A stretch of DNA of 64,000 nucleotides from Massilia soli (GTDB lineage: Bacteria; Pseudomonadota; Gammaproteobacteria; Burkholderiales; Burkholderiaceae_D), in NCBI RefSeq assembly GCF_016809835.1, contig NZ_JAFBIL020000008.1, positions 1 through 64,000 of the forward strand. The letters are read 5' to 3'. Below the pieces are notes generated by a model. The model saw nothing but the letters and a program-made list of their open reading frames with translations. It ran no database searches and was not told the origin of the DNA. Shown here piece by piece: positions 11,673-40,938 of the stretch. Numbering within the stretch: position 1 is the first letter of the stretch; the number at the start of each line of letters is the position of its first letter. A program made the position numbers and the translations under genes.

Positions 11673-12829
11673 CGCGCCTCCTTGCGTGCGTAGGCCACTT
11701 GCGGCGCGGGCCCGGATGGCGCCGCGGCATTGGCCTTCGCGGTCCGCGAACGCTTCACCCACAGGTACAAGCCGCTGCCCAGGACAATGATGGTGGCGAT
11801 ATCGAGCATCGCCCACAGGAACTTCATCCACAGCCCGCCGTAGTCGCCGAAGTGCAGCGGCTGCGACACCAGCAGCGCGGTCAGGTACCACGGCAGCGTG
11901 CGGCGATCGGTCAACTCGCCGGTCTGCGCGTCGATCAGCACGGGCCTGTACAGGCGAGATGAAAACGCTTCATTCCCGCGCATGAAGACGCCGTAGTGAT
12001 GCGGCGTGGCGAACGGCGTGCCAGGGAACGCGACGAAGCCGACTTCCATGCCCGGCTCGGAGGCCAGCGCCAGCTTGACCGCGCGCTCCATCGACGCCAG
12101 CCTTGCCGGCGCGCCCATGCCCTGGTAAGGCTTGACCATCTCGGCCAGCTCGGTCGCCTGCCAGTACTTCAGGAGCACGTCAGCCCAGGTATTGATCATG
12201 CCGGTGGCGCCCACCACCAGCGCCCACACCAGCGTGACGATGCCAAGCATGTTATGCAGGTCGAGCCACTTGGTGCGCGCCGAACGTTCGCGCCGCACCG
12301 TGCCGAATTCGAGCTTGCGCATGAACGGCGAGTACAGCACCGTGCCAGATACCAGCGCCACCAGCAGCAGCAATCCCATCAACCCCAGGAACAGTTTGCC
12401 GTAGAGGCCAGCGAACAGGTCGACATGCAGGCGGAACATCGTCGACATGAACGGCCCGCCCTCGAATGCCGGCTCGGTGATCACTTTCGCTGTGCGCGCG
12501 TCGACCGCGATCGGCTTGTAGTTCTCGTCGTTCGGATGGTCGCCAAGGGTCACGTTCCAGATTTCTGGCTCGCCCATCTCCTGCGACATATACATCATGA
12601 TCTTCCCGGGATACATCGCCTTGCCGGCGGCGATGACGTCATCGAGGTCAGCCATGGCAGTGCCGGGCGGCATCGCCGGGGCTTCGACATCGTTACCCAG
12701 CAGGTGGCCGATCTCATGGTGGTAGATCAGCGGAAGCCCGGTCAGGCAAAGCAGCAGCATGAAAACGGTGCAGACCAGGCTGCTCCATTTGTGGATCCAT
12801 GCCCAGCGGCGGACGGTAACAGGAGTCAT
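11669..12829 (-). CDS. PepSY-associated TM-helix protein
   Basis: This 386-residue inner-membrane protein of the PepSY_TM (PiuB-like) family has an N-terminal TM (WSSLVCTVFMLLLCLTGLPL followed by HHEIGHLLG), a periplasmic PepSY region, and TMs near residues 145-165, 195-215 and 335-360. Conserved His residues occur in HKWSS, HVDLF and WLDLHNMLGI. Family members sit in siderophore operons, and some act as ferric-siderophore reductases. It is divergent from the TonB-dependent receptor, with two Fur-like boxes in the 112-bp gap, so an iron-starvation role is likely. It is coupled to the 55-residue membrane protein downstream. Confidence 0.9.
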   Translation of the reverse strand: MTPVTVRRWAWIHKWSSLVCTVFMLLLCLTGLPLIYHHEIGHLLGNDVEAPAMPPGTAMADLDDVIAAGKAMYPGKIMMYMSQEMGEPEIWNVTLGDHPNDENYKPIAVDARTAKVITEPAFEGGPFMSTMFRLHVDLFAGLYGKLFLGLMGLLLLVALVSGTVLYSPFMRKLEFGTVRRERSARTKWLDLHNMLGIVTLVWALVVGATGMINTWADVLLKYWQATELAEMVKPYQGMGAPARLASMERAVKLALASEPGMEVGFVAFPGTPFATPHHYGVFMRGNEAFSSRLYRPVLIDAQTGELTDRRTLPWYLTALLVSQPLHFGDYGGLWMKFLWAMLDIATIIVLGSGLYLWVKRSRTAKANAAAPSGPAPQVAYARKEAR

Positions 12830-12864
12830 CAGGGATATCGCAAGAATAGATCAGCAGATGTTAA

Positions 12865-12879
12865 TGCAAATCGTTCTCA
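12865..12879. promoter_or_regulatory. Fur-box-like site 1
   Basis: TGCAAATCGTTCTCA matches the 7-1-7 Fur pattern (TGATAATNATTATCA) imperfectly. It lies 36 bp upstream of the PepSY start, on that gene's side of the divergent gap. A perfect-symmetry box is 43 bp further right. Confidence 0.65.
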
Positions 12880-12907
12880 TTTACAAGCTAGCTTTTCCGG
12901 ATTACAA

Positions 12908-12922
12908 TGAGAATCATTCTCA
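12908..12922. promoter_or_regulatory. Fur box 2 (perfect 7-1-7 inverted repeat)
   Basis: TGAGAATCATTCTCA is a perfect 7-1-7 inverted repeat with strong resemblance to Fur consensus, 20 bp before the TonB receptor ATG. Iron-loaded Fur bound here should repress the receptor, and with box 1 the PepSY operon. Confidence 0.85.
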
Positions 12923-12941
12923 TCACTGTAAAGACACGTTC

Positions 12942-15122
12942 ATGCACACCCTGCCCTTCAAGCTCTCGCCTGTCGCCATTGCCGCCCTGATCGCCACCAG
13001 CACCATTGCCCACGCCCAAAGCGCACCTGGCGAGCCGGCCGTCATGCCAACGGTCGTGATCAGTGCGTCGGCCGACGCGTCGGCGCAAGGGCTGCCGTCC
13101 TCCTACGCGGGTGGCCAGGTAGCGCGCGGCGGGCGCCTTGGCTTGCTGGGCAACGTGGATGTGATGGACAGCCCGTTCAACACGACTAACTACACGCAGG
13201 CCCTGATCCAGGACCAGCAGGCGCGCAGTGTCGCCGACGTGCTGCAGAACGATCCGTCGGTCCGCGTGGCGCGCGGCTTCGGCAATTACCAGGAGCTGTA
13301 TGTGATCCGCGGCTTTGCGGTCAACTCGGACGACCTGGCCTACAACGGTTTGTACGGCCTGCTGCCACGCCAGTTCGTCGCCTCCGAGCTGCTCGAACGC
13401 GTCGAGGTATTCCGCGGCGCGAACAGCTTCGTCAACGGCGCCGCACCTGGCGGCGGCGGCATCGGCGGCTCGATCAATCTGCTGCCGAAGCGCGCTGCCA
13501 ACACGCCGCTGACCCAGTTCACGGCGGGCGTCGAAAGCGGCGGCCAGGCGTACGCGGCAGCCGACATCGGACGCCGCTTCGGCCCGCAAGACCGCGCCGG
13601 CATCCGCGTCAACGCGGCCAAGCGCAAAGGCGACACCGCGGTCGACCGCGAACAGCGTGAACTGAGCCTGTTCTCGGTTGGCCTGGACTACCGCGGCACC
13701 AACGTGCGCGTATCCGCCGACGCCGGCTATCAGGACCACACGCTCGACAACGCGCGGCCAAGCGTGACGCTCGCCGCAGGCATTCCGGTGCCGGCGGCGC
13801 CCAAAGGCACCAGCAACTGGGCGCAGCCGTGGACCACATCGACCGAGCGCGACACCTTCGGCACCCTGCGCGGTGAAATCGACGTCGGCACCGACACCGT
13901 GGCGTGGGGCGCGTTCGGCGTGCGTTCAGGCGACGAGTTCAATATTCTGGCCGCGCCGACGGTCGGCCGCGCCGACGGCAGCGCGATCATGTACCGCTTC
14001 GACAATGCGCGGGTCGATCATGTGCGCACCGCCGAAGTCGGCATCCGCGGCAGGCTGCGCACCGGCGCGATTGGCCACACGCTCAGCGCAACTGCGTCGG
14101 GCTTCTCGCAAAAATCGCGCAACGCTTATGCGATGAGCGACTTCTTCACCGGCTTCGCCACCAACCTGAATCGTCCAGTCGATGTTGCAGCGCCGGCAGC
14201 CAACTTCTTCACGGGCGGCGACATGAACAACCCGCTGCTGACGCAGAAGTCTGTTCTGTCCAGCTATGCCGTGGCCGACACCATGGAACTGGCGGGCGGC
14301 AAACTGCTGGTCACGGTTGGCGCACGCCATCAGACGATCAGGGCCTACAGCTACGACTACAACACCGGCGCCGAGAACGCCGCGTACGACCAGAGCGAGG
14401 TCACGCCGGTCGCCGGCATCGTCTACAAGCCGTGGCCGGGCGTCTCGGTTTATGCAAATTACATCGAGGGCCTGCAGCAAGGTCCGGTCGCATCCGGCAC
14501 CAACATCGACAATGTGGGCGAAGCATTTGCACCGTTCACCTCGAAGCAGAAGGAAGTCGGCGTCAAGTATGACTCGGGCAAACTGGGAATGAGCGCCGCG
14601 CTGTTCACCACGTCGCAGCCATCGGCGTACGTGATCGACCGCCGCTTTGGCGTGTATGGCGAACAGCGTAACCGCGGCTTCGAGCTGTCGGTGTTCGGCA
14701 CCCCGGCACGCGGCGTGCGCCTGCTTGGCGGCCTGACCCTGCTCGACGCCGAGCAGCGCGTGACGGCGGGCGCCGTCAACCAGGGCAAGGATGCCATTGG
14801 CGTGCCGGAAACGCAGCTGAACCTGGGCGCGGAATGGGATGTGACGGGCATCGACGGCCTGACGCTGACGGCGCGCACGCTGTACACCGCCAGCCAGTAC
14901 GCTGACGGCGCCAACACGCAGGAATTGCCGTCATGGGCGCGCCTTGACCTGGGCGCCAGCTACGCGATGCGCATTGCAGACCGCGCAGTGACCCTGCGCG
15001 CCCGCGTCGATAACGCTACCGGCAAGGACTACTGGGCATCGGCCGGCGGTTTCCCGGGTTCGGGCTACCTTGTGCAAGGCGCACCGCGCACGGTCGTCGT
15101 CTCCGCATCCGTAGACTTCTAA
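12942..15122 (+). CDS. TonB-dependent siderophore receptor
   Basis: This 726-residue outer-membrane receptor imports ferric siderophores with TonB energy. The signal peptide (LSPVAIAALIATSTIAHAQS) begins at the ATG at 12942; the longer frame from 12759 runs through the Fur region and was rejected. The plug domain (about 50-190) shows RSVADVLQNDPSVRVARGFG, ELYVIRGFAV and LLERVEVFRGANSFVNGAAP, followed by GGSINLLPKRA. The 22-strand barrel ends in the aromatic C-terminal signature VVVSASVDF. A TonB box is not certain; PTVVISAS near residue 35 is a candidate. The 3' end is the source of the TonB-derived part of the tandem array at 15123-15839. Confidence 0.95.
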   Translation: MHTLPFKLSPVAIAALIATSTIAHAQSAPGEPAVMPTVVISASADASAQGLPSSYAGGQVARGGRLGLLGNVDVMDSPFNTTNYTQALIQDQQARSVADVLQNDPSVRVARGFGNYQELYVIRGFAVNSDDLAYNGLYGLLPRQFVASELLERVEVFRGANSFVNGAAPGGGGIGGSINLLPKRAANTPLTQFTAGVESGGQAYAAADIGRRFGPQDRAGIRVNAAKRKGDTAVDREQRELSLFSVGLDYRGTNVRVSADAGYQDHTLDNARPSVTLAAGIPVPAAPKGTSNWAQPWTTSTERDTFGTLRGEIDVGTDTVAWGAFGVRSGDEFNILAAPTVGRADGSAIMYRFDNARVDHVRTAEVGIRGRLRTGAIGHTLSATASGFSQKSRNAYAMSDFFTGFATNLNRPVDVAAPAANFFTGGDMNNPLLTQKSVLSSYAVADTMELAGGKLLVTVGARHQTIRAYSYDYNTGAENAAYDQSEVTPVAGIVYKPWPGVSVYANYIEGLQQGPVASGTNIDNVGEAFAPFTSKQKEVGVKYDSGKLGMSAALFTTSQPSAYVIDRRFGVYGEQRNRGFELSVFGTPARGVRLLGGLTLLDAEQRVTAGAVNQGKDAIGVPETQLNLGAEWDVTGIDGLTLTARTLYTASQYADGANTQELPSWARLDLGASYAMRIADRAVTLRARVDNATGKDYWASAGGFPGSGYLVQGAPRTVVVSASVDF

Positions 15123-15839
15123 ACGTGGTTCCCGCGAGTGGGCATGGAACGCGACCTATGGGTTCCCGCCTGCGCGGGAACTGCGTTAGCGAGGTTTGGC
15201 GTCATGTCTTCGACCACACCCGGCGCGGTCTACCTCCTGCGAGGCGCACGGCTCATCCGTAGAACTCTTACCGTCGTTCCCGCGAAAGCGGGAACCTATA
15301 CTAAGTGCGCTAAGAACGCGAACTATGGGTTCCCGCCTGCGCGGGAACGACGTTAGCGAGGTTTAGCGCCATGTCTTCGACCACACCCGGCGCGGGTTAC
15401 CTCGTGCGAGGCGCGCTCCTCATCCGTAGAACTCTTGACGTCGTTCCCGCGAAAGCGGGAACCTATACTGAGTGCGCTAAGAACGCGAACTATGGGTTCC
15501 CGCCTGCGCGGGAACGACGTTAGCGAGGTTTAGCCACACCCGGCGCGGGCTACCTCGTGCAGGGCGCGCTCCTCATCCGTAGAACTCTTGACGTCGTTCC
15601 CGCGAAAGCGGGAACCTATACTGAGTGCGCTAAAAACGCGAACTATGGGTTCCCGCCTGCGCGGGAACGACGTTAGCGAGGTTTAGCGCCATGTCTTCGA
15701 CCACACCCGGCGCGGGCTACCTCGTGCGAGGCGCACTCCTCATCCGTAGAACTCTCGACGTCGTTCCCGCGAAAGCGGGAACCTACACTGAATGCGCTAA
15801 TAACGCGAACTATGGGTTCCCGCCTGCGCGGGAACGACG
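15123..15839. repeat. Tandem array of fused TonB-receptor tail, REP pair and SDR tail
   Basis: This 717-bp region holds no gene. It has five REP-like palindrome pairs (left hairpin GTTCCCGCGAAAGCGGGAAC, right GTTCCCGCCTGCGCGGGAAC). Copies of the SDR-gene end (TTAGCGAGG) lie at about 15184, 15352, 15519 and 15672, with the native one at 15840, giving spacings of about 168, 167, 153 and 167. After each copied SDR end comes CTTCGACCACACCCGGCGCG, also from the SDR gene, fused to GGGCTACCTCGTGCGAGGCG and CATCCGTAGA from the receptor end. Copies lack a 22-bp internal stretch of the SDR tail and roughly 17 bp of the receptor tail. One unit lost about 14 bp more. It probably also terminates both convergent genes. 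Confidence 0.88.
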
Positions 15840-16646
15840 TTAGCGAGGCTTGGCGTCGTCCTTCACGGCCGCAAGCGCCATATCTTCGACCACACCCGGC
15901 GCGACCAGCTTCAGGAACCGCCCAAGCTTCGCCTTGGCGGTCATCACCACCTCGCGCTCGCGCCGATTCATCCCGTCGATGATCAGGCGCGCGCATTCTT
16001 CCACGCTCATCGCGTCATCTTCTTTCAGCTTGCTCACGCCTGCGGGCTTGCCTTCCGCATTAAATCCCCGCACCCGTACCTTGGTCGCCACCACGCCTGG
16101 ATAGGCGGTCGTCACACTCACTCCAGCGCCCTTGAGCTCCATGCGCAGCGTCTCGAAAAACCCCGTCATCGCAAATTTGGTCGCCGCATATGCGGTCCTG
16201 CCAGGAACGCCGACCAGCCCGACAATCGACGACACGGCCACAATCGAACCTTTCGACGCCTTCAGGTGCGCCAACGCGGCGTGCGTGCACCATACGCTGC
16301 CCCACAGGTTGATGCGCATAAGCTCCTCATACCAGCCCAGGTCCGCCACCTCCTCGAACAGCGCGTGTGCGGATCGGCCAGCGTTATTGATCAATGCGTC
16401 GATGCGTCCAAAGCGCTCGATTGCCGCGGCCACCAGGCGATTGCACTGCTCTTGCACGGTGACGTCAGTTTGCACGACAAGCGACTGCGCGCCGAGCGCC
16501 TCGCATTGGCCGGACACTTGCGCCAGCATCGACTCGCTACGTGCCGCCAGTACGAGCGCCACGCCGCTGCCATGCGTATGGGCCAGCTGGCGAGCCATTT
16601 CGGCGCCAATTCCGTCCGACGCGCCGGTAATGACGATCACTTTCAT
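15840..16646 (-). CDS. SDR-family NAD(P)-dependent oxidoreductase
   Basis: This 268-residue short-chain dehydrogenase/reductase is a Rossmann fold with the cofactor motif VIVITGASDGIGAEMARQLA, NNAGRS, the catalytic Ser in VAVSSIVG and YxxxK in YAATKFAMTG. The C-terminal half resembles DltE/YqjQ-type SDRs acting on lipids or ketones; the substrate is unknown. ATG 16646 begins exactly at the Rossmann strand and has AGGGA upstream; a frame extension to 16697 adds a low-complexity lead and was rejected. Its last codons (PGVVEDMALAAVKDDAKPR) are the source of the SDR-derived part of the downstream tandem array. Confidence 0.9.
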   Translation of the reverse strand: MKVIVITGASDGIGAEMARQLAHTHGSGVALVLAARSESMLAQVSGQCEALGAQSLVVQTDVTVQEQCNRLVAAAIERFGRIDALINNAGRSAHALFEEVADLGWYEELMRINLWGSVWCTHAALAHLKASKGSIVAVSSIVGLVGVPGRTAYAATKFAMTGFFETLRMELKGAGVSVTTAYPGVVATKVRVRGFNAEGKPAGVSKLKEDDAMSVEECARLIIDGMNRREREVVMTAKAKLGRFLKLVAPGVVEDMALAAVKDDAKPR

Positions 16647-16665
16647 TGACGTTCCCTTTGAATGA

Positions 16666-17028
16666 CTATGCAACGGCCGCGCCAGCGATCGTGCCAAGCG
16701 CCGACGCGAGCGCTACCAGGACAATGAAGCCAAGCAGGCCAAAGATCGCTCGCACCCTGAATCCCTTAGGACGGCTGCGCAGCAGATAATATGCGACCGC
16801 AAAGGGGCCCAGCAGAATCACGGCGATATTCAGCCCGAGCGAGCGCCGGTAACCTGCGGCGTCGCTGTCGCGGCAATACCAGACGAACGAGACAAAGTTG
16901 AAAACCAGGCCTAGCAATACCATCACGGCCATGTTCGGCCGGTCTTTTGCCACTGTGGCGACAAAGCTCTCGGCTACCGTGATGAACAGCAGGAGTGACA
17001 GTATCGGCCATGCCTTCGCCGCGGCCAT
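16666..17028 (-). CDS. Small four-helix membrane protein of unknown function
   Basis: This 120-residue hydrophobic protein has about four TM segments: AWPILSLLLFITVAESFVAT, MAVMVLLGLVFNFVSFVWYC, LGLNIAVILLGPFAVAYYLL and FGLLGFIVLVALASALGTIA. No known domain was recognised. It starts 2 bp after the stop of the stomatin-like gene and ends 20 bp before the SDR start, so it is probably in the nfeD-stomatin transcript. Codon use is like its neighbours. A role linked to membrane microdomains is suggested by context only. Confidence 0.75.
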   Translation of the reverse strand: MAAAKAWPILSLLLFITVAESFVATVAKDRPNMAVMVLLGLVFNFVSFVWYCRDSDAAGYRRSLGLNIAVILLGPFAVAYYLLRSRPKGFRVRAIFGLLGFIVLVALASALGTIAGAAVA

Positions 17029-17030
17029 GC

Positions 17031-17948
17031 CTACTTCTGGGCTTTCGCGATCTGCATGGCACTTGCGATCAATCCGCTCATATCCGAGAGGTTCGCCGGC
17101 ACGATGATCGAATTGTTGGTCTTGGCGAGGTTCTCGAAGGCGTGCACGTACTGCTCCGCCACCTTCAGGTTGACCGCCTCGGCACCGCCCGGTTCGCGGA
17201 TCGCCGCGCCGATCTGGCGCAGCGCGTCGGCATTAGCCTCAGCCAGCGCCACGATGGCCTTGGCCTGGCCTTCGGCGCGATTGATCGATGCCTGCTTCTC
17301 GCCCTCCGAGCGGGCGATTGCCGCCTGGCGTTCGCCGGTGGCGATATTGACCTGCTCCTGCTGGCGCCCTTCCGACGCAGCGATCAGCGCACGCTTGCCG
17401 CGCTCCGCCGTGATCTGCGCCTGCATCGCGTGCAGGATCTCCTGCGGCGGCGTCAGGTCCTTGATCTCGTAGCGCAGCACCTTCACGCCCCAGTTCGCGG
17501 CCGATTCATCGATCGCATTGACGATCGTGACGTTGATGTGGTCACGCTCTTCAAACGTCTTGTCCAGCTCCATCTTGCCGATGACCGAACGCAGCGTGGT
17601 CTGCGCCAGCTGGGTGATCGCCTGCAGATAGTTGGACGAGCCGTACGACGCGCGCATCGCATCGGTCACCTGGAAGTACAAGATGCCGTCGACGTGCAGT
17701 TGCGTGTTATCGCGCGTGATGCAGACCTGCGGCGGAACATCGAGCGGAATCTCCTTGAGCGAGTGCTTGTAGGCGATGCGGTCGATAAACGGGATCACGA
17801 TGTTCAAACCAGGTGACAGCGTCGCATGGTACTTGCCGAGTCGTTCGACCACCCATGCGTGCTGCTGCGGCACCACGTTGATCGTCTTAAAAACAAATAC
17901 CAGTGCGACGACGAACAGCACGGTCGCTACGCTTCCAAAGACTTCCAT
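17031..17948 (-). CDS. SPFH/Band 7 (stomatin-like) membrane protein
   Basis: This 305-residue protein has one N-terminal TM (SVATVLFVVALVFVFKTINV) then a Band 7 domain (PQQHAWVVERLGKYHATLSP; IPFIDRIAYKHSLKEIPLDV). A long Ala/Glu-rich coiled coil follows (about 190-255), then VPANLSDMSGLIASAMQIA. The layout matches E. coli QmcA (YbbK) and slipin-2/paraslipin proteins, which oligomerise in membrane microdomains and may partner FtsH-like proteases. The gene follows nfeD by 21 bp, the classic YbbJ-YbbK pairing. Confidence 0.93.
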   Translation of the reverse strand: MEVFGSVATVLFVVALVFVFKTINVVPQQHAWVVERLGKYHATLSPGLNIVIPFIDRIAYKHSLKEIPLDVPPQVCITRDNTQLHVDGILYFQVTDAMRASYGSSNYLQAITQLAQTTLRSVIGKMELDKTFEERDHINVTIVNAIDESAANWGVKVLRYEIKDLTPPQEILHAMQAQITAERGKRALIAASEGRQQEQVNIATGERQAAIARSEGEKQASINRAEGQAKAIVALAEANADALRQIGAAIREPGGAEAVNLKVAEQYVHAFENLAKTNNSIIVPANLSDMSGLIASAMQIAKAQK

Positions 17949-17969
17949 GGTGACCTCTTTCAGTGATGA

Positions 17970-18392
17970 TTATGAATTTGCGACGATGAGCCGGCTGCCC
18001 CGCACTTCGACGATCTTGAAATTGCCGGCTTCGGCGATCGCGCCCTGCCCCAGTTCGACATCCCACAGCGCCCCGCGATACATCACGCGGGCCCGGCCGC
18101 CCTGCCATTGGTCGACGTCGAGGCGTTGGCCAATATCGATGTTCACGTTATGGTCGCGCGCGGGATCGCGCTTGGCAGGACTGCCAAAGCGGCTGCGGTG
18201 CAGCACGGCGGTTGCGATCAGGCCGACGACCGCCGCGATGATGATCTGCATTGGCAGCGACACGCCGGCCAGCGCCGCCAGCGCGCCAAACGCCAGCCCA
18301 ACCGCGATCATCAGCAAATAGAAAGTACCGGTGAACATTTCAAACACCACCAATACACCGGCTATGATCAGCCACCACACCCAGTCAGTCAT
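17970..18392 (-). CDS. NfeD-family membrane protein
   Basis: This 140-residue short NfeD protein lacks the ClpP-like protease domain of long forms. TM segments are WVWWLIIAGVLVVFEMFTGT, FYLLMIAVGLAFGALAALAG and QIIIAAVVGLIATAVLH, followed by a C-terminal OB-fold (VDQWQGGRARVMYRGALWDV to VRGSRLIVAN). Such proteins pair with stomatin-like partners, as here, and are thought to shape their assembly. It is the first gene of a leftward operon. A terminator-like hairpin at 18431-18462 lies in its leader. Confidence 0.92.
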   Translation of the reverse strand: MTDWVWWLIIAGVLVVFEMFTGTFYLLMIAVGLAFGALAALAGVSLPMQIIIAAVVGLIATAVLHRSRFGSPAKRDPARDHNVNIDIGQRLDVDQWQGGRARVMYRGALWDVELGQGAIAEAGNFKIVEVRGSRLIVANS

Positions 18393-18430
18393 TACAGCCT
18401 CCCTCGATTTCGGCTATTTCAAAACACAAA

Positions 18431-18462
18431 AGCCCCCGAAACCAGTAAAGGCAACGAGGGCT
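18431..18462 (-). terminator. Leader hairpin/terminator-like structure upstream of nfeD
   Basis: Read leftward, AGCCCTCG and CGGGGGCT make an 8-bp stem with one mismatch and a 16-nt loop, followed by TTTTGTGTTTT. It lies just upstream of the nfeD start and downstream of a promoter-like TTATAC region, so it would sit at the 5' end of the transcript. It may attenuate the operon or block read-through from further right. Confidence 0.4.
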
Positions 18463-18616
18463 CATGAAGCGATGGTATAAGTTTTTTATAATATTGGATT
18501 CGCTGGATTGATGTCTGTAGTGTATCGAATTTCGGCGAAGAGTCAATATCCCGGCTTTTGACCAAGAGATTGTTCTAAAGTGGCGCCATTCAATGGATAA
18601 GTTAAAAGGAAACGGA

Positions 18617-19612
18617 ATGCGGAATCGGCTGCTCGTCCAGGCACTCTTTGTCATGGCATTTGGAACCGGCGCTATCCAGACTGCGGTTGCCCGCGGCGAC
18701 ATGCAAGATGGAGCGGTCCCCGGCACCCCTTTCGCCCGCAAGACGATCCAGGATGATTCCGGGCGCAGCATCACCTATTACATCAGCCGTCCGCGGGCAG
18801 GCACCGCGCCAATACTTCTGATGGTCCAGGGTTCCGGCTGCGCTCGCGTTCTCAACAAGCAAGCCGGGGCTGCCTACAGCACCATTTTCAACCTCGTCCC
18901 TTTTGCAAGCGACGGACGATTTACGGTTGTCGCCGTAGAAAAGCCATTCTCCGGGGAGGAAACCACAGATTCCTCTGGAACAGCCACCGCCTGCAGTCGC
19001 CAGTTCAATGAGGATTTCACCGCCGAGGGCTGGCTGAAGGCATTGCAGGCAGGCCTGGCGGATGCGCGCCGGTCGCCGTGGGCGGATCAGCAGCGCACGC
19101 TGGTGCTGGGCATGTCCGAAGGGGCTGTCATGGCCACGATGCTGGCCGCCAGCGATAAGCGCGTTACCGATGTGATTGCGATCAGCGGCTCGGGCACCAC
19201 CCAGCTGTATGACTTTTTCGCCCAGGCGTACCGCACCTGTTTCGATGTGTCGCGCTGCCTTGCGGCGCTGGAGAGCACGGCGCGCGACATCAGTGCGGAT
19301 CCGCACAGTTCAACCAGGTTCGCGTGGGGACATCCGCACAAGCGGTGGACGTCGTTCTTTCGCGTCGATCCTGGCGAGCAGCTGCTAAGGAGCAGGGCTC
19401 GGATCTATCTCGCGCTGGGCACGAGCGATAGCGCGGTACCGGCGCTGTCCCAAGAGGTCGCAGTCGCCAAACTGCTCGGCGCGGGCCGCGATCTAACGGT
19501 CAAGCGGGTAGCGGACGGGGACCACAGCTTGCGCCCGGGCGGCGCGAGCACCCTCGATACGCTCGATGCGGTTCAGCGTACAGCCCTGGACTGGTTCGTC
19601 CAAGCCAAATAA
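18617..19612 (+). CDS. Secreted alpha/beta-hydrolase
   Basis: This 331-residue serine hydrolase has an N-terminal signal peptide (MRNRLLVQALFVMAFGTGAI, cut near AVA-R). The nucleophile elbow is LGMSEGAV (GxSxG). A plausible acid is the Asp in LGTSDSAVP, and the base is His in VADGDHSLRPGG. An early GSGCARV segment may form the oxyanion hole. It lacks sequence details that would assign it as an esterase, thioesterase or peptidase. ATG 18617 was preferred over 18593 because AAAGGA lies 6 bp before it and the signal peptide starts there. It is monocistronic and convergent with ppsA. Confidence 0.82.
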   Translation: MRNRLLVQALFVMAFGTGAIQTAVARGDMQDGAVPGTPFARKTIQDDSGRSITYYISRPRAGTAPILLMVQGSGCARVLNKQAGAAYSTIFNLVPFASDGRFTVVAVEKPFSGEETTDSSGTATACSRQFNEDFTAEGWLKALQAGLADARRSPWADQQRTLVLGMSEGAVMATMLAASDKRVTDVIAISGSGTTQLYDFFAQAYRTCFDVSRCLAALESTARDISADPHSSTRFAWGHPHKRWTSFFRVDPGEQLLRSRARIYLALGTSDSAVPALSQEVAVAKLLGAGRDLTVKRVADGDHSLRPGGASTLDTLDAVQRTALDWFVQAK

Positions 19613-19614
19613 TT

Positions 19615-19648
19615 AAAAAGCCCCGCGACCGTTACCGGCAGCGGGGCT
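19615..19648 (-). terminator. Terminator of ppsA (possibly bidirectional)
   Basis: AGCCCCGC (19619-19626) pairs with GCGGGGCT (19641-19648), an 8-bp perfect stem. The A-run at 19615-19619 gives the U-tract for leftward transcription, so it ends ppsA. It also lies right after the stop of the rightward hydrolase gene. Confidence 0.85.
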
Positions 19649-19669
19649 CTTGGCAGACACGCGGAATGC

Positions 19670-22108
19670 TTACATCGCCGCGAGCTTCTGCCAGGTCTCC
19701 ACCACCGAGTCAGGATTGAGCGACATCGACTCGATCCCTTCGTCCATCAGCCATGCGGCGAAGTCCGGATGGTCCGATGGGCCCTGGCCGCAGATGCCGA
19801 TGTACTTGCCCTGCGCGCGGCAGGCCTTGATCGCCATCGACAGCATCGCCTTGACGGCCGGGTCGCGCTCGTCGAAGTCGGCTGCCAGCAACGCCATCCC
19901 CGAGTCGCGGTCCAGGCCCAGCGTCAACTGGGTCAGGTCGTTGGAACCGATCGAGAAGCCGTCGAAGTGCTTGAGGAATTCGTCAGCCAGGATGGCGTTC
20001 GACGGCACTTCGCACATCATGATCAGGCGCAGGCCGTTCTCGCCGCGCTTCAGGCCATTTTTGCCCAGCAGGTCGACAACCTTTTCTGCCTGGCCAACGG
20101 TACGCACGAACGGCACCATGATCTCGACGTTGGTCAGGCCCATGTCGTTACGCACGCGCTTCATCGCCGCGCATTCCATTTCGAATGCGCCGGCGAAGTC
20201 GGCGGCCAGGTAACGCGCCGCGCCGCGGAAGCCGAGCATCGGGTTTTCTTCGTCCGGCTCGTAGCGCGAACCGCCGATCAGCTTCTTGTACTCGTTCGAC
20301 TTGAAGTCGGACAGGCGTACGATGACCGGCTTCGGCCAGAACGCCGCCGCGATGGTGGCGATGCCTTCGGCCAGCTTGTCGACGTAGAACGCCTTTGGCG
20401 AAGCATGGCCGCGCGCGACCGACTCCACTGCCTTCTTCAGGTCCGCATCGATGTTCGGGTACTCGAGAATGGCCTTCGGGTGCACGCCGATGTTGTTGTT
20501 GATGATGAACTCAAGGCGCGCCAGGCCAACGCCCGCATTCGGCACCGACTGGAAGTCGAATGCCAGCTGCGGGTTGCCGACGTTGAGCATGATCTTGGTC
20601 TTCAGCGGTGGCAGCTCGCCGCGCGCCACTTCCGACACTTCGGTCTCCAGCAAGCCGTCGTAGACCCGGCCTTCGTCGCCCTCGGCGCACGATACCGTAA
20701 CAAACGTGCCGTCCTTGAGCAGTTCGGTCGCGTCGCCGCAGCCCACAACGGCAGGCACACCCAGTTCGCGCGCGATGATCGCCGCGTGGCAGGTACGGCC
20801 GCCGCGGTTCGTCACGATCGCCGATGCGCGCTTCATGACCGGCTCCCAGTTCGGATCGGTCATGTCGGCCACCAGCACGTCGCCCGGCTGGACGCGTTCC
20901 ATCTCCGACGGGTCGGTGATCACGCGCACTGGCCCGGCGCCGATCTTCTGGCCGATCGCGCGGCCGGAGGTCAGCACGGTGCCGGTGCCTTTGAGCTTGA
21001 AGCGCTGCTGCGCGTCGGTCGCCTTCTGCTGCGACTTGACCGTCTCCGGGCGCGCCTGCAGGATGTACAGCTTGCCGTCGCGGCCATCCTTGCCCCACTC
21101 GATGTCCATCGCGCGGCCGTAGTGGTTCTCGATGATGACGGCATACTTCGCCAGCTCGACGACTTCAGCGTCGTTCAGCGAATAGCGGTTGCGCATCTCG
21201 ATCGGCACGTCGACGGTTTTTACCGAACGGCCAGCCTTTGCTTCGTTGGTAAATTCCATCTTGATCAGCTTCGAGCCGATATTGCGGCGGATGACCGGCA
21301 GCTTGCCCAGTTCGAGCATTGGCTTGTGAACGTAGAATTCGTCCGGGTTGACCGCGCCCTGCACCACCGTCTCGCCCAGGCCATAGCTGGAGGTGACGAA
21401 TACCACGTCCTTGAAGCCGGACTCGGTATCGATGGTGAACATCACGCCGGCGGCGCCGAGGTCCGAGCGGACCATGCGCTGCACGCCAGCCGACAGCGCC
21501 ACTTCGGCGTGGGTGAAGCCCTTGTGCACGCGGTACGAGATCGCGCGGTCGTTGTACAGCGACGCGAACACGTGCTTCATCGCTTCGAGGATGTTGTCGA
21601 TGCCGACCACGTTCAGGAAGGTCTCCTGCTGGCCCGCGAACGATGCGTCCGGGAGGTCTTCCGCGGTCGCGGAGGAACGCACGGCGAACGACATCTCGGT
21701 GCTGGAATCGGCGACCAGGCGGTCGTAGAATTCCTGGATCTCTTTCATGAGGCGCGGCTGGAACGGCGTTTCGACGATCCACTTGCGGATCTCGGCGCCG
21801 GCCACGGCCAGCGAGCGCACGTCGTCGATGTCGAGGCCTTCAAGGCGGGTGGCGATGCGCTCGCCCAGCGATGCGCCGCCGTCGATGCTGTAATGGAGGA
21901 AGTCGCGGAACGCCTGCGCCGTGGTGGCAAAGCCGCCCGGCACCCGCACGCCGGCGTGCGCCAGCTGGCTGATCATCTCCCCGAGGGAAGCGTTCTTGCC
22001 GCCGACGGATTCGACATCCGTCATGCGCAATTCTTCAAATGAAGCGACATATACGCTTGAATCGGCCTGACCGGGCTCCTTCAATGCAGCGTTAGACAAG
22101 TTGGTCAT
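19670..22108 (-). CDS. ppsA: Phosphoenolpyruvate synthase
   Basis: This 812-residue enzyme makes PEP from pyruvate and ATP for gluconeogenesis. The N-terminal ATP-grasp domain shows [11 protein letters not shown] and the loop [20 protein letters not shown]. The swivelling phosphohistidine domain has [20 protein letters not shown]. The C-terminal PEP/pyruvate barrel shows [34 protein letters not shown] and [16 protein letters not shown]. Length matches the family (about 792). It is divergent from ppsR, whose product switches it off and on by phosphorylating and dephosphorylating the conserved Thr next to the catalytic His (the T in RTCHA). Confidence 0.98.
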
Positions 22109-22300
22109 GGTAAATACCCTTACTGATGATAGAAATCTTCGCGTAAAGCAGTGCTACCCAACTCCGGGCCGCCCGGTATTCTTGTTATTCTTGGCGTCGT
22201 GCAGCACAATTGAATCCGTTGCAAAGCATTTTACAGCCTGTGCGGGTAATTTACAGCGCACAACCTTGAAACATTGGCAGCATCGGATGCAGATCACACA

Positions 22301-23149
22301 ATGACCACAGAAACCCGCCCCCCTCTGCCGACGTCGGCGCGCACCGTCTTTTTCGTCTCGGACGGCACCGGCATCACGGCCGAAACCTTCGGGCACGCCG
22401 TATTGACGCAGTTCGAAATGAAGTTCCGCCAGGTCCGCCTGCCGTTCATCGACACCCTGGACAAGGCCTACGACGCCAAGCGCAAGATCAACGAAGCGGT
22501 CAATCTTGATGGTCAGCGCCCGATCGTCTTTTCGACCCTGGTCAAGCACGACCTGTCGCAGGTGATCCGCCAGGCCGACGGCATGCATATGGACCTGATC
22601 CAGACCTTCGTGGCGCCGCTGGAGCAGGAGCTCGGGCTCAAGTCGACCCACACGGTCGGCCGCTCGCACAACATCGTCGACAGCGAGGAATACAAGAACC
22701 GCATCGAGGCGATCAACTTCTCGCTCGCGCACGATGACGGGCAGTCGCACAAGAACCTGTCGGACGCCGATGTGATTCTGGTCGGCGTGTCACGCTCGGG
22801 CAAGACGCCGACCAGCCTGTACCTGGCGATGCAGTACGGGATCAAGGCGGCCAACTACCCGCTGATCCCGGACGACTTCGAGCGCGGCAAGCTGCCGTCG
22901 TCGCTGCCGCCCTTCAGGCACAAGATTTTCGGGTTGAGCATCACGCCGGAGCGTTTGTCGGAGATCCGGCACGAGCGCCGCGCGGGCAGCAAGTACGCGT
23001 CGATTGAAAACTGCCGCTACGAGGTGAACGAAGCGGAGCTGATGATGAAACGCGAAGGAATCAGGTGGCTGTCGTCGACCACCAAGTCGATCGAGGAGAT
23101 CGCTACGACGATCCTGCAGGAGATCAAGCCGGATCGCCGCGACTACTGA
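22301..23149 (+). CDS. ppsR: PEP synthase regulatory protein (kinase/pyrophosphorylase)
   Basis: This 282-residue DUF299 bifunctional enzyme uses ADP to phosphorylate PEP synthase and phosphate to reactivate it. Motifs include [20 protein letters not shown] at the N-terminus and the P-loop-like [20 protein letters not shown]. The C-terminal block is [20 protein letters not shown] and [20 protein letters not shown] 22301 was chosen; the longer frame uses a TTG and adds nine residues. It is divergent from its target gene ppsA. Its last 160 bp have been copied twice downstream as part of the 372-bp array. Confidence 0.96.
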
Positions 23150-23360
23150 CGCTCCGTCGTTCCCGCGAAGGCGGGAACCCCTACTTCGCCGAATACTCGC
23201 ATGCTGCATGGGCTCCCGTTTTCAGGGGAGCGACGCGTCAGAAGAAATGCCGCCAATCCTCCAGCCAGCCCGAGGCGCCGTCGACAAAGCTGCGGTCGAT
23301 CTTCAGCTCGGAGAACGGCACTCGCCAGTCCGAAGCCCATCATCCGCAAGCGCACCAGCC

Positions 23361-23521
23361 GCAAGTACGCGTCGATTGAGAACTGCCACTATGAGGTTAA
23401 CGAAGCGGAGCTGATGATGAAACGCGAGGGAATCAGGTGGCTGTCGTCGACCACCAAGTCGGTCTAGGAGGTCGCGACGACGATCCTGCAGGAGATCAAG
23501 CCGGATCGCCGCGACTACTGA
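23361..23521 (+). pseudogene. Truncated ppsR 3' copy (second repeat)
   Basis: This segment encodes [20 protein letters not shown] onward, near-identical to the ppsR C-terminus, but ends early at TAG where the native gene reads GAG. It has no start, SD or N-terminal domain, so it is a non-functional duplicate of the gene end. Confidence 0.85.
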
Positions 23522-23732
23522 CGCTCCGTCGTTCCCGCGAAGGCGGGAACCCCTACTTCGCCGAATACTCGCATGCTGCATGGGCTCCCGTTTTCACGGG
23601 AGCGACGCGTTAGAAGAAATGCCGCCAATCCTCTAGCCAGCCCGAGGCGCCGTCGACAAAGCTGCGGTCGATCTTCAGCTCGGAGAACGGCACTCGCCAG
23701 CCCGAAGCCCATCATCCGCAAGCGCACCAGCC

Positions 23733-23893
23733 GCAAGTACGCGTCGATTGAGAACTGCCGCTATGAGGTGAACGAAGTGTGGCTGATGATGAAACGCGAA
23801 GGAATCAGGTGGCTGTCGTCGACCACCAAGTCGATCGAGGAGATCGCTACGACGATCCTGCAGGAAATCAAGCCGGATCGCCGCGACTACTGA
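23733..23893 (+). pseudogene. Truncated ppsR 3' copy (third repeat)
   Basis: This is a second fragment of the ppsR 3' end, retaining the frame through the native stop (ending [10 protein letters not shown]), with a few substitutions (VNEVWLMMK for VNEAELMMK). It has no 5' part and no promoter, so it is taken as a duplicate fragment. Confidence 0.85.
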
Positions 23894-23981
23894 CGCTCCG
23901 TCGTTCCCGCGAAGGCGGGAACCCCTACTTCGCCCAATACTCGCATGCGGCATGGGCTCCCGTTTTCACGGGAGTGACGCG

Positions 23982-25178
23982 TCAGAAGAAATGCCGCCAA
24001 TCCTCCAGCCAGCCCGGGAAGGCGTCCGCCTTCATCGGCTTGGCGATGTGATACCCCTGCGCGTAGGTGCACCCCAGCCCCTGCAAAAAGTCCCAATCCT
24101 GCTTGGTCTCGACGCCGACGGCCACCGACATCCGGTCCAGGCTGCGCGCCAGCCCGAGGCATGAACTCAGCACCGTCCCCAGCGCCCGCTTTTTCGAGGC
24201 GCCGTCGACAAAGCTGCGGTCGATCTTCAGCTCGGAGAACGGCACTCGCGCCAACAGCTGCAAATTCGACCTGCCGGTGCCGTAATCGTCAATCGCCAGT
24301 CCGAAGCCCATCATCCGCAAGCGCACCAGCCGCTCCAGGAAGGTTGGGTCAGTGGTCAGCACCGACGACTCGGGCATCTCGAAGGTTATATAGTCCGGCA
24401 GCACGCGGTGGCGCTGGATGCACGCGGTGATCTGCTGGATGAATCCTGCATGCGCCAGCGTCTCGTAAGCGAGGTTGATCGAAATCGGAATCGGCGTGCC
24501 CTTGTCCTGAAACTCGCGGCAGCGTTCGACCGACTTTTCGATCATGGTCCAGTCGAGGAAGTCGATGCGGTTGTGCTGCTCGAGCGCGTCGATGAACGCC
24601 AGCGGCCCCAGTACGCCGTGCTCCGGATGCTCCCAGCGCGCGAACGCTTCCAGGCCCTTGACCTGGCCGGTGGCCAGCTCGATCTTCGGCTGGAAAAACG
24701 GCTCGAACTGGCGCGCCTGCAAGCCAATACCGATATCGGAGAAGGAGAAGGTCGGACCGCGCGGACGCTCGCTGCGCTGCTTGGGCGGCACGTAATTTTC
24801 GATCAGCGCCTGCAAGCGAGCGACAGTCACCGGCTTGGCAATGGTTCCCAGCAGGTCAAGCCCGTACGCCTGCGCCATCGTCTCGACCGAGAACAGCAGG
24901 TTCGTTGGCTGCGCGCCGACCACAATCACACGGGTGCGGCAGTTCATTCCCGCCAGCGTGCGGATCAGTTCCAGCCCGTCCATGCCCGGCAGCGACAGGT
25001 CGACGACGGCGATATCCACCGCCGGCGCGAACGATTCATTCAAAAACCGCAGGGTTGAATGTCCGTCGGGAACCTCGGAAACCTGGCTTGCGCCCAGCTT
25101 GCCGAGCATGTCCACGACCGCGAGACGCTGGGCCTGATCCGCCTCGGCTACCAAAAAATGCAAATGGGCGATGTCCAC
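23982..25178 (-). CDS. Response regulator with receiver and EAL domains
   Basis: This 398-residue cytoplasmic protein has an N-terminal receiver (about 1-125): acidic residues near 12-14, phospho-acceptor Asp60 in VVDLSLPGMDG, and Lys in GTIAKPVTV. The C-terminal EAL c-di-GMP phosphodiesterase domain (about 150-395) shows GLEAFARWEHP (EAF in place of EAL), Asn in SINLAYETL, FEMPES, the metal-binding pair IDDYGTGRSN, Lys in LKIDRSFV, Glu in VGVETKQDW and AQGYHIAKPM. The residues needed for catalysis seem present, so it is probably active. No cognate kinase is adjacent. Its 3' end is the source of the EAL part of the 372-bp array. Confidence 0.92.
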   Translation of the reverse strand: MDIAHLHFLVAEADQAQRLAVVDMLGKLGASQVSEVPDGHSTLRFLNESFAPAVDIAVVDLSLPGMDGLELIRTLAGMNCRTRVIVVGAQPTNLLFSVETMAQAYGLDLLGTIAKPVTVARLQALIENYVPPKQRSERPRGPTFSFSDIGIGLQARQFEPFFQPKIELATGQVKGLEAFARWEHPEHGVLGPLAFIDALEQHNRIDFLDWTMIEKSVERCREFQDKGTPIPISINLAYETLAHAGFIQQITACIQRHRVLPDYITFEMPESSVLTTDPTFLERLVRLRMMGFGLAIDDYGTGRSNLQLLARVPFSELKIDRSFVDGASKKRALGTVLSSCLGLARSLDRMSVAVGVETKQDWDFLQGLGCTYAQGYHIAKPMKADAFPGWLEDWRHFF

Positions 25179-28632: not shown

Positions 28633-29120
28633 TACTGCCCCGCTGCTGGCTTGCTCGCGTCGTCGGTGGCGCGAATTGTGCACATCAGTTCAGCTTCCAG
28701 CGCCACGGCGCCGTCCACTGTGCCGACTGCCTTGTATTTCCAGATGCCGCGCGAGACCCGCAGGATCTCGACGTCCATCTTGAGCTGGTCGCCAGGACCG
28801 ACCGGACGCTTGAAACGCGCGTTGTCGATGCCGACGAAATACACCACCGAATTCTCATCCGGCTTGACGCCCATGGTCAGGAACGACAGCAGCGCGGCGG
28901 TCTGCGCCAGCGCTTCGATCATCAACACGCCCGGCATGACCGGCTTGTGCGGGAAGTGGCCGTTGAAAAACTCTTCGTTGACGGTGACGTTCTTGATCGC
29001 GGTGATCGACTTGTTCGCTTCCCAGGTCAGCACGCGGTCCACCAGCAGCAGCGGATAACGGTGCGGCAGCAGCGCCTTGATCTGGCAAATGTCGAGGGTC
29101 TTGTTTTCGGTAGTGGTCAT
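28632..29120 (-). CDS. fabZ: 3-hydroxyacyl-ACP dehydratase
   Basis: This 162-residue hotdog-fold enzyme dehydrates (3R)-hydroxyacyl-ACP in fatty acid elongation and competes with LpxA for hydroxyacyl-ACP. Active-site His is in [20 protein letters not shown], with the Glu in that block. [18 protein letters not shown] is the usual N-terminus. It overlaps lpxD by 4 bp and lpxA by 1 bp, the conserved lpxD-fabZ-lpxA arrangement. Confidence 0.97.
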
Positions 29121-30166
29121 TTTTGTTCTGTCAGGGTTTTAATTGTTTTTTCCAGCGCGCGGATTTTATCGCGCATCGTGTCCAGGTTGCGAACAATCGC
29201 CGCGGTTTTTTCCCAGTCGGCGTTTTTCGCCAGCGGGTAGAAGCCGGTGTACTGTCCCGGCTCGGCGATCGAGCGCGACACCATGCTGCCCGACGAGATA
29301 TGCACGTGGTCTGCGATCGTCAGGTGGCCCAGCACCATCGCGGCGCCGCCGAAGGTGCAGTACTTGCCGATCTTTGCGCTGCCGGCCACGCCGACGCAGC
29401 CGGCCATCGCGGTATGCGCGCCGATGTGGCAGTTGTGGCCGATCTGGATCTGGTTGTCCAGCTTGACGCCGTCTTCGATGATGGTGTCGGCCAGCGCGCC
29501 GCGGTCGATGGTCGTGTTGGCCCCGATATCGACATCGTCGCCGATGACCACGCGCCCGGTTTGCGGAATCTTGATGTACACGCCGCCTTCATTGGCGAAG
29601 CCGAAGCCGTCGGTGCCGATCACCGCGCCCGAGTGGACGATGCCGCGCGCGCCGATCTGGCAGCCGGCATGGAAGGTCACGTTGGCGAACAGCTGTGTAT
29701 CGGCGCCGATGACGGCGTTCCGGCCGACGAAGCAGCCCGCGCCGATGACCGCGCCGGCGCCGATCCGCGCGCCCTCTTCCACCGTCGCATGCGGCCCCAC
29801 ATGGGCCGAAGGATCGACCGTGGCGCCGTCGGCGACATACGCGCTCGCATGCACGCCGGGCGCGGGCACGAACGCCGTCAGCGACTCGAAGTACTGCGCG
29901 GCGCGGGCAAAATAGGCGTACGGATTTTTGGTGACGATGCGCGCACCCGGGTAGGTCGCGCCAACGGTCTCGCTGTCGGCCGGCGACAGGATCAGGGCCG
30001 CGGCCCCGCTTTGCGCGGCTTGCGCGCGCAGTTTGCTATTGCTTAGGAAGCTGATGTGCGAAGCGCCTGCATCGGCCAGCGGCGCGATGCCCGTGACGTC
30101 GATATTCGGGTCACCCGCCAGCTCACCTCCCAAGCGTTCGACCAATTCACCCAGTCGAGTGCCCAT
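29117..30166 (-). CDS. lpxD: UDP-3-O-acylglucosamine N-acyltransferase
   Basis: This 349-residue enzyme adds the second hydroxyacyl chain in lipid A synthesis. The N-terminal uridine-binding domain ([40 protein letters not shown]) is followed by hexapeptide repeats. The catalytic His region is [20 protein letters not shown], and the C-terminal helix is [20 protein letters not shown]. It follows skp by 19 bp. Confidence 0.97.
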
Positions 30167-40599: not shown

Positions 40600-40938
40600 G
40601 TGATTCTCCAGGGTTGGGTCTGGAATCCGGCCAGTCACCTCGAGGGCACCCTTTGAGGCCGGATTCGCGATTTAACAAGTAATTTGACAACATTGCTTGG
40701 AACTGAATTCAAGCAACCCGAGATTCTAGCCGGTTTTGGCCATGTTTTCAAGTGTTGCGTGCACTGGAATGCATGCAGTCGCGGCCCGTCGTTCCCGCGC
40801 ATGCGGGAACCCATGCCCCTTGGGGCCGGCGCGCTATGGGTTCCCGCCTGCGCGGGAACGACGCGAAACCTATTGGCCTGCGATCACTTATAATGAGGCC
40901 ATTCCCGCTATAAACGCTTTTTGTCGATTGTGACCACT
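40600..40938. other. rpsB-map divergent intergenic region
   Basis: This 339-bp non-coding stretch should contain the promoters of rpsB (leftward) and map (rightward). The REP-like pair at 40787-40863 splits it in two. CACTTATAATGAG at 40886-40898 contains a good -10 (TATAAT) for map. Short frames over the REP pair encode phrases such as RMREP and PACAGT, typical of translated REP DNA, and are not genes. Confidence 0.6.
40787..40863. repeat. REP-like inverted palindrome pair
   Basis: Left element CGTCGTTCCCGCGCATGCGGG(AACCCAT) and right element (ATGGG)TTCCCGCCTGCGCGGGAACG(ACG) are inverted copies, each a hairpin, separated by about 20 bp. The same palindromes occur in the arrays at 15.1-15.8 and 23.2-24.0 kb. 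Here the pair is a single copy and lies between divergent promoters, not convergent ends. Confidence 0.85.

Follow-up and report, generated by a model that had tools for sequence, protein, structure and literature searches.

Why do two convergent gene pairs of Massilia soli each enclose a tandem array assembled from the ends of both genes and a common palindrome? The pairs lie at the start of contig NZ_JAFBIL020000008.1 (C38 in our numbering) of assembly GCF_016809835.1, a genome of 4.99 Mb in 39 contigs (G000); the 64,000 nucleotides analyzed there are called the window. The palindrome is a repetitive extragenic palindrome (REP) with a CGTC tag. We conclude that the arrays are probably, with a probability that we put near 0.7, tandem duplications formed in situ and centered on an inverted pair of such REPs. 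Among named species, Massilia agrisoli (99%) and M. polaris (98%) come closest in their PpsR proteins.

Two arrays of chimeric gene tails

The first array (array 1; 15147-15855) comprises 4.3 copies of a unit with a period of 167 bp (153 bp in one unit) and a 90% match between copies. To its left is a gene for a TonB-dependent siderophore receptor (12759..15122, plus strand; TIGR01783 over cut-off) whose stop codon at 15120-15122 is intact; to its right, on the minus strand, is a gene for an SDR family oxidoreductase (15840..16655; NF004825 over cut-off). The units are made of the SDR tail, the receptor tail and a REP pair. The SDR tail corresponds to 15838-15903 without about 22 bp (~15852-15873), and the receptor tail to 15061-15126 without about 17 bp (~15085-15101). 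Alignment to the parent genes places these chimeric segments at 15190..15268, 15354..15437, 15521..15590 and 15674..15757; the third of the four has lost a further 14 bp. REP pairs alternate with them. The inverted-repeat list gives those at 15123..15189 (also read from the sequence), 15269..15353, 15591..15673 and 15758..15842, the last adjoining the SDR stop, and a fold calculation gives the one at 15438..15520.

The second array (array 2; 22989-24016) has 2.8 copies of a 372-bp unit at a 95% match. Its left parent is ppsR, encoding the PEP synthase regulatory kinase/phosphorylase (22301..23149, plus strand; NF049928 over cut-off). Its right parent encodes a response regulator with an EAL domain (23982..25178, minus strand) that resembles PvrR in a profile match below the model cut-off. 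The units combine the ppsR tail (22986-23158), a REP with a degenerate partner, and the EAL-gene tail. The last is present in three pieces (to 24016, 24197-24249 and 24297-24333), having lost 180 and 47 bp in two internal deletions. Palindrome matching and folding locate the REP and its degenerate second REP at 23152..23235 in the first copy, and alignment puts the chimeric segments between REP copies 1 and 2 and between copies 2 and 3 at 23239..23523 and 23611..23895 (ends approximate).

The units of both arrays read in the same order: REP pair, right-gene end, left-gene end, REP pair. Each array has a full copy of the left gene on its left side and of the right gene on its right side, so that neither gene is disrupted. 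The suggestion that the arrays furnish new C-termini finds no support here, since at the edges of both arrays the genes still end at their original stops. The rest of the description in the original prediction stands in large part: the two tail-REP-tail tandem arrays are where it placed them, and internal deletions at short homologies are found within the tails of both.

Its further statement that the REP pair is kept intact in the center of each unit was half right. The pair is indeed the less divergent portion: copies differ at 31/1237 positions (2.5%) within it and at 92/1508 (6.1%) in the rest of the unit, a count in which the last unit of array 1 includes the SDR gene's own end. The difference has the same direction in all six arrays compared (five from this genome, one from another species) and is significant singly in three. 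Nevertheless, the left REP of the first pair in array 1 (about 15123-15150) has been damaged by a deletion, and array 2 has a degenerate second REP. The low divergence of the pair could be explained by selection or by conversion from other REP pairs.

The repeated element is a CGTC-tagged REP pair

The REP has the form CGTC-GTTCCCGC-N4-GCGGGAAC-CCA/T and occurs both in pairs and singly. Its 20-bp core, GTTCCCGCN4GCGGGAAC, has 165 perfect copies in the genome, against none for a reversed control, and the genome holds 36 close inverted pairs, array copies counted. In the window, with at most one mismatch allowed, the palindrome gives 32 strand matches where 1.3 are expected; none of 100 shuffles scored as high. 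The window also holds a single, unamplified pair of the same family (40787..40863). The CGTC-tagged REPs of Di Nocera et al. (2013; PMC3733652) are described, in the available part of that paper, by a CGTC tag, an 8-9 bp stem, a 4-5 nt loop and a CCA-type tail; they occur mostly as dimers, prefer positions behind genes and are not associated with a transposase. The REP considered here shares these properties: tag, stem, loop, tail, dimeric occurrence, position behind genes and the absence of a flanking tyrosine transposase (0/3 Y1_Tnp loci).

The inverted pair is about 81 bp long. The array 1 copy at 15438..15520 folds as one hairpin (−34.8 kcal/mol with DNA parameters, z = −8.7). Matches to array 1 elsewhere in the genome comprise the ~81-bp pair only, and matches to array 2 comprise the REP or parts of the REP and its flank; the captured gene tails were absent away from their own loci among the candidates scored (40 of 194 first-look candidates for array 1 and 40 of 183 for array 2). 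Transposition of whole units was accordingly rejected. By form, then, the inverted pair is a REPIN: it makes one hairpin and is dispersed as a unit. We use that name for form only. Mobilization by a REP-associated tyrosine transposase (RAYT), which the name also implies and the original prediction had invoked, was not seen, in that none of the genome's three Y1-transposase genes has this REP within its 3.3-kb locus.

Next to two of those three Y1 genes are other repeats in tandem, bearing GGGGACAG or GGGGTCAG motifs. One gene is at C37:28575-28901 (L001), with repeats at C37:28095-28182 and 28992-29121; the other is at C11:313540-313866 (L002), where the transposase gene contains a stop and coincides in part with a 374-bp tandem duplication. 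These repeat-flanked genes resemble the transposases flanked by terminal inverted repeats that are described in PMC3733652. Separately, in a genome of the comparison set (G010, C48 ~29.5 kb; L201), a REP pair was seen by eye inside a segment with inverted AGGCTGTCTCAAAA-type ends, with a broken REP on each side.

The joins lie in the gene tails

We compared 15 joins, comprising duplication joins and internal deletions. They show 0-7 nt of homology with a mean of 2.5, compared with 0.74 at random; 0 of 20,000 resamples reached this value. For the right-to-left join of array 2, the homology is 0 as entered and 2 when judged by eye. Such joins fit template switching at short homology or end joining and do not fit recombination between REPs; because the joins lie in the tails, REP-by-REP recombination was rejected as the founding step. 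Some tail deletions are common to all units of an array and some occur in one unit only. Deletions private to one unit imply that the tails keep shrinking.

Similar arrays occur elsewhere

The REP survey covered 1,944,118 bases (1.94 Mb of the 4.99 Mb) and was partly aimed at REP pairs and contig ends. It gave 93 REP rows, which became 90 clusters after three arrays split by contig ends were merged by hand; gene calls came from a crude method based on third-position GC (GC3), and the orientations of the split arrays and of the glmM array were assigned by hand. Eight of the 90 clusters are tandem arrays. A ninth array (C36 ~371 kb) came from an array-directed search outside this sample and is excluded from the cluster counts. 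It is irregular, lacks a Tandem Repeats Finder (TRF) row and was found by self-comparison, which makes the array counts lower bounds. With nine arrays in the genome and one in another species, the outcome recurs beyond the two window sites, and the prospect that these were the only two cases can be set aside.

Six of the nine include 18 bp or more of coding sequence from a flanking gene (weakly in one), and both tails are clear in four. Besides the window arrays, a third array is split between the right end of C1 and the left end of C37. It lies between codirectional genes that we take to be yicC and gmk, and its unit joins a yicC tail lacking about 107 bp to DNA upstream of gmk. The fourth (C36 ~152.8 kb), between convergent MYG1-like and DUF4272 genes, is built of four units that include both tails and show no clear deletion. 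The fifth is the C36 ~371 kb array, which lies next to a gene for a UvrD-like helicase; it, too, includes both tails, with deletions on each side. An array at the C37 and C34 ends, beside a DEAD-box helicase gene, carries a coding end of about 18 bp (by eye, weak). No coding end is seen in the array at the C22 and C7 ends or in that at C22 ~405 kb, and the array at C33 ~202.7 kb, behind what is presumably glmM and before tRNA-Pro, includes a stop codon at most. In another species of the genus (G004), an array of about eight 165-bp units carries the end of the right-hand gene, which is helicase-like by eye. In the array at L195:18826-19464, units and gene agree almost perfectly over the right-gene tail (60, 60 and 59 of 60 positions), while 4-7 of the 44-45 positions of the left tail differ from the gene; recombination may have replaced the left-gene end. 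In G004 (C2 ~122.7 kb; L203), an apparent open frame was also seen by eye to contain a REP array of five 48-bp units, which would give protein repeats there.

Most clusters are not amplified. When 400 kb of C11 was scanned first, no array appeared at 20 clusters; two of the 20 had weak repeats (75-81%) of a kind present also at 17/150 random points. A stricter self-comparison was positive for 10/93 REP rows and, among random REP-free points (400 at most), for 2. Other matches to the three-REP patterns, in G001, G002, G007, G010 and G016, had no TRF array at the loci checked. Among arrays with a period of at least 100 bp and a match of at least 90% in the 1.94 Mb, seven are at REPs and one is not.

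Capture of gene ends follows unit and gap length

Are convergent genes needed, as the original prediction supposed? Arrays were found in 5/26 convergent clusters, 3/53 codirectional clusters, 0/6 divergent clusters and 0/5 clusters of undetermined orientation. Convergent clusters are thus weakly enriched: Fisher's p is 0.053 against the other oriented clusters together (3/59) and 0.107 against codirectional clusters alone. Convergence as a requirement was rejected, since the codirectional yicC-gmk array shows the same structure and p is 0.053.

A simpler rule emerged from comparing, by hand arithmetic, the single-copy gap with the unit (both in bp). For arrays with coding ends, the gap/unit values are 63/167, 88/372, ~178/195, ~100/134 (the weak case), 68/160, ~88/235-382 and, in G004, ~148/165; for those with no more than a stop codon, they are ~230/119, ~410/105 or 292, and 184/68. 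Hence, where the unit exceeds the gap, coding ends are present in 7/7 arrays (one weakly), and where the gap is longer, 3/3 have none or a stop codon at most. When the REPIN sits in a gap of about 60-180 bp, a unit that exceeds this gap cannot avoid including gene ends. In convergent clusters, the gaps are short or nearly filled because the REP lies close to the stops: by the crude gene calls, one stop or both lie less than 20 bp from the REP in 16/21 non-array convergent clusters, and both do so, the arrangement described for convergent copies of CGTC-tagged REPs, in 7/21. Tail capture is therefore mostly a matter of geometry, occurring where the repeat unit exceeds the intergenic gap, and no special process is needed to account for it.

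Insertion precedes amplification

The two window sites were compared with those of the relatives. M. agrisoli carries a lone REPIN at site 1, without an array, and M. polaris has no REPIN there. At site 2, a lone REPIN is present in M. polaris, and M. agrisoli has no REP of this core. These one-copy and empty sites imply that insertion came first and amplification later.

Behind ppsR, none of 80 relatives has an array of this REP core, some of their contigs ending within about 0.6 kb; two of the 80 have other tandem repeats there. In one of these two, M. psychrophila (L109:10888-11174), a two-unit 147-bp array behind ppsR contains, by eye, a variant CGTC palindrome with a GTCCTCGC stem; it is an independent amplification at the orthologous place. 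Behind yicC, arrays were found in 0/15 relatives and a REP within 230 bp in 6/15. The gene pair of the C36 152.8-kb array has no REP in G001. The individual amplifications are thus events separate from one another.

A small GIY-YIG nuclease gene beside CGTC REPs

A gene for a small GIY-YIG protein (C37:327491-327775; L339/L364) is enclosed by a cluster of six REPs. Thirty GIY-YIG loci of the genus were divided by frame length into 13 small genes and 16 long-frame genes taken as UvrC, one (L363, with a frame of 2735 aa) being dropped. A CGTC REP lies within 400 bp in 8/13 of the small-gene loci and in 0/16 of the others; these loci are not independent, 9/10 of those compared sharing flanks with another, and few events are represented.

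In a sample of Pseudomonadota, 81 of 299 genomes have a GIY-YIG match at 1e-8, and 50 loci were scored (L364, from this genome, and L365-L413). A CGTC REP flanks the gene in 17 of the first 30, with REPs on both sides in 12; without this genome's own locus, the source of the idea, the count is 16/29. Among 20 further loci, one per other genome and chosen before their flanks were seen, the gene is flanked in nine and on both sides in five. REP density in the two sets is 1.68 and 1.44 per kb within 400 bp of the gene and 0.07 and 0.00 per kb beyond 700 bp. By hand count of family codes, the 26 REP-flanked hits span 13 families. The stems vary between genomes and look the same by eye on both sides of the gene in about 13 of the 17 both-sided loci; in 31/43 cases, the REP closest to the gene has its tag directed away from it, as tags are in REPINs. 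In sparse samples of three of these genomes, REPs numbered 0 in 80 kb (G275), 1 in 80 kb (G235) and 9 in 100 kb (G111), with stems other than those beside the GIY-YIG gene. Two genomes whose GIY-YIG gene lacks a REP by the strict finder (G236 and G232) had none in 80 and 60 kb, respectively.

An alignment of 45 proteins, leaving out five translations with stops, shows a conserved GTLYxGVT core, an R...H pair and an REK helix, from which we infer that the domain looks active. The small GIY-YIG nuclease is a candidate partner for the CGTC REPs and a possible source of the breaks that founded the arrays. More tentatively, CGTC REPs may belong to this small gene (~97 aa) as GTAG REPs belong to RAYTs: REP-nuclease-REP would be the full element, REPINs its derivatives, and cutting of REPINs followed by short-homology repair the origin of the arrays. 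Among the literature matches listed, GIY-YIG co-occurs with related search topics in a single mitochondrial paper, which does not establish absence from print.

Mechanism and alternatives

We envisage the following course for the proposed in-situ duplication. First, a REPIN arrives between two genes, just beyond their stops; the species comparison shows this stage at the two window sites. A segment spanning it is then duplicated, with breakpoints in or beside the flanking genes at homologies of 0-7 nt. The joins record this outcome; its likely cause is a stalled fork or a break where the hairpin forms, with template switching thereafter. Copy number would next rise to 3-8, with homogenization of the units, through slippage or unequal exchange. 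The copied tails, free of coding constraint, gather point changes and short-repeat deletions, as observed in them.

Several observations weigh against this account. The 15 joins were placed by hand from alignments, and five of them belong to one array; none is within the REPIN, the distances being tens to hundreds of bases. The hairpin as the trigger for stalling or breakage is our inference, and the REP pair of array 2 makes a poor hairpin at present (no single hairpin; −18.7 kcal/mol, z = −2.3). The excess of tandem-like repeats in REP-bearing gaps favors the account (6/81 REP-bearing and 8/788 REP-free cases in gaps of 30-900 bp, a set without the arrays at contig ends; p = 0.0009), but array 2, split by a spurious open reading frame, is counted twice there, and one REP-side repeat does not contain the REP. 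In 1.54 Mb of the relatives' ppsR loci, only one of six tandem arrays (period at least 60) is at a REP-like palindrome. Finally, one genome per species was compared, so that copy-number change was not seen.

The evidence from gaps and from relatives' loci bears on whether the REPIN is a bystander: duplications might arise anywhere and be selected out of genes, with REPINs merely occupying the gaps in which the survivors lie. By the logic of the sequence, a duplication over a gene boundary leaves both genes whole, which would bias survival to gaps, and five of the six arrays in the relatives' ppsR loci are not at REPs, one of the five lying in a gene beside an N. Against this, REP-free gaps are about sevenfold poorer in repeats (8/788 vs. 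6/81), their cases including tRNA-like copies and repeats beside Y1 transposases, and the longer, well-matched arrays of the 1.94 Mb are at REPs in seven cases and elsewhere in one. We regard a bystander role as unlikely. As a separate observation, a tandem trio of near-identical tRNA-like genes was noted by eye at C35:59371-59822 of this genome. A more attractive, still doubtful, alternative is that the small GIY-YIG endonuclease is the partner of the CGTC REPs and cuts REPINs, short-homology repair then producing the tail-REPIN-tail units; this would be in-situ duplication with a named trigger. The gene is present in this genome inside its six-REP cluster, and CGTC REPs accompany it in 17/30 and then 9/20 loci of the phylum and, in the genus, in 8/13 loci as opposed to 0/16 long-frame GIY-YIG genes and 0/3 Y1 transposases. 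However, the strict finder shows no REP at 24 of the 50 phylum loci (several of which display CCTC or TGTC variants by eye), and an association is no proof of enzyme action on REPs or in these arrays.

The remaining explanations appear much less probable. That the arrays are kept as extra hairpins ending transcription between convergent genes would suit the nearness of REPs to stops in non-array convergent clusters (16/21) and the smaller divergence of REPIN copies than of tails. It sits poorly with sister species that have one REPIN or none, and a scan of 15000-16000, the array 1 region, found no T-run terminator; the idea of extra terminators thus gains nothing from array 1, and we consider it quite improbable. 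A distinct process acting on convergent gene tails and mobilized by a RAYT seems, if anything, a shade more remote: it would agree with the 5/26 convergent versus 3/59 other clusters, yet p is 0.053, the codirectional yicC-gmk array has the same structure, and no Y1-transposase gene is flanked by this REP, two of three lying beside other repeats. An assembly artefact is scarcely credible. Three arrays do lie at contig ends, but real arrays themselves break assemblies, and the units differ by point changes and private deletions.

Comparison with known systems

The notion of an undescribed process was too strong, for tandem REP copies "including the flanking sequences" have already been published. 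In Pseudomonas fluorescens SBW25, 16 tandem REPIN clusters have units of the form flank-REPIN-flank (Bertels and Rainey 2011; PMC3116915), and in Stenotrophomonas maltophilia the SMAG arrays place REP monomers or dimers in tandem with flanks of variable length, at copy numbers that vary between strains (Roscetto et al. 2008; PMC2613905). The arrays of M. soli share with both the head-to-tail layout of REP and flanking DNA. Unlike the CGTC REP of this genome, the SBW25 REPs are tied to RAYT genes, and the available part of that account mentions no coding ends, flank deletions or capture rule. Given the portions of the literature available, arrays of REPs with flanks are known, and the capture of coding ends together with the geometric rule is a variant that we did not find described there.

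In starved Escherichia coli, all 40 sequenced amplification junctions had microhomology, and 16 were in REPs (PMC3161906), which sets a precedent for the cause proposed here. Microhomology junctions are thus common to both systems, the E. coli REP hot spots being attributed, in the part of the paper available, to secondary structure. They differ in that some of the E. coli junctions are in the REP itself, whereas ours are in the flanking genes of units of ~70-600 bp. Clusters of CGTC REPs are described in the accessible text of PMC3733652 as rare except in Neisseriae and Wolbachia; here, 8/90 clusters are tandem arrays, several with gene ends. The GIY-YIG association bears on a question raised in that text, namely whether and by what CGTC REPs move. 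If the nuclease were the partner, a common class of Pseudomonadota palindromes would gain an enzyme that can be purified and tested.

The M. soli arrays show how chimeric minisatellites can arise from single REPINs, of which related species preserve the one-copy and empty states, and they provide a simple rule for when REP arrays capture gene ends. The comparison is sharpest with SMAG, a different REP family with short flanks (26 and 31 bp at the two loci described): in the available text, its authors discerned no rule in the pattern, whereas here the length of the unit relative to the gap predicts gene-end capture.

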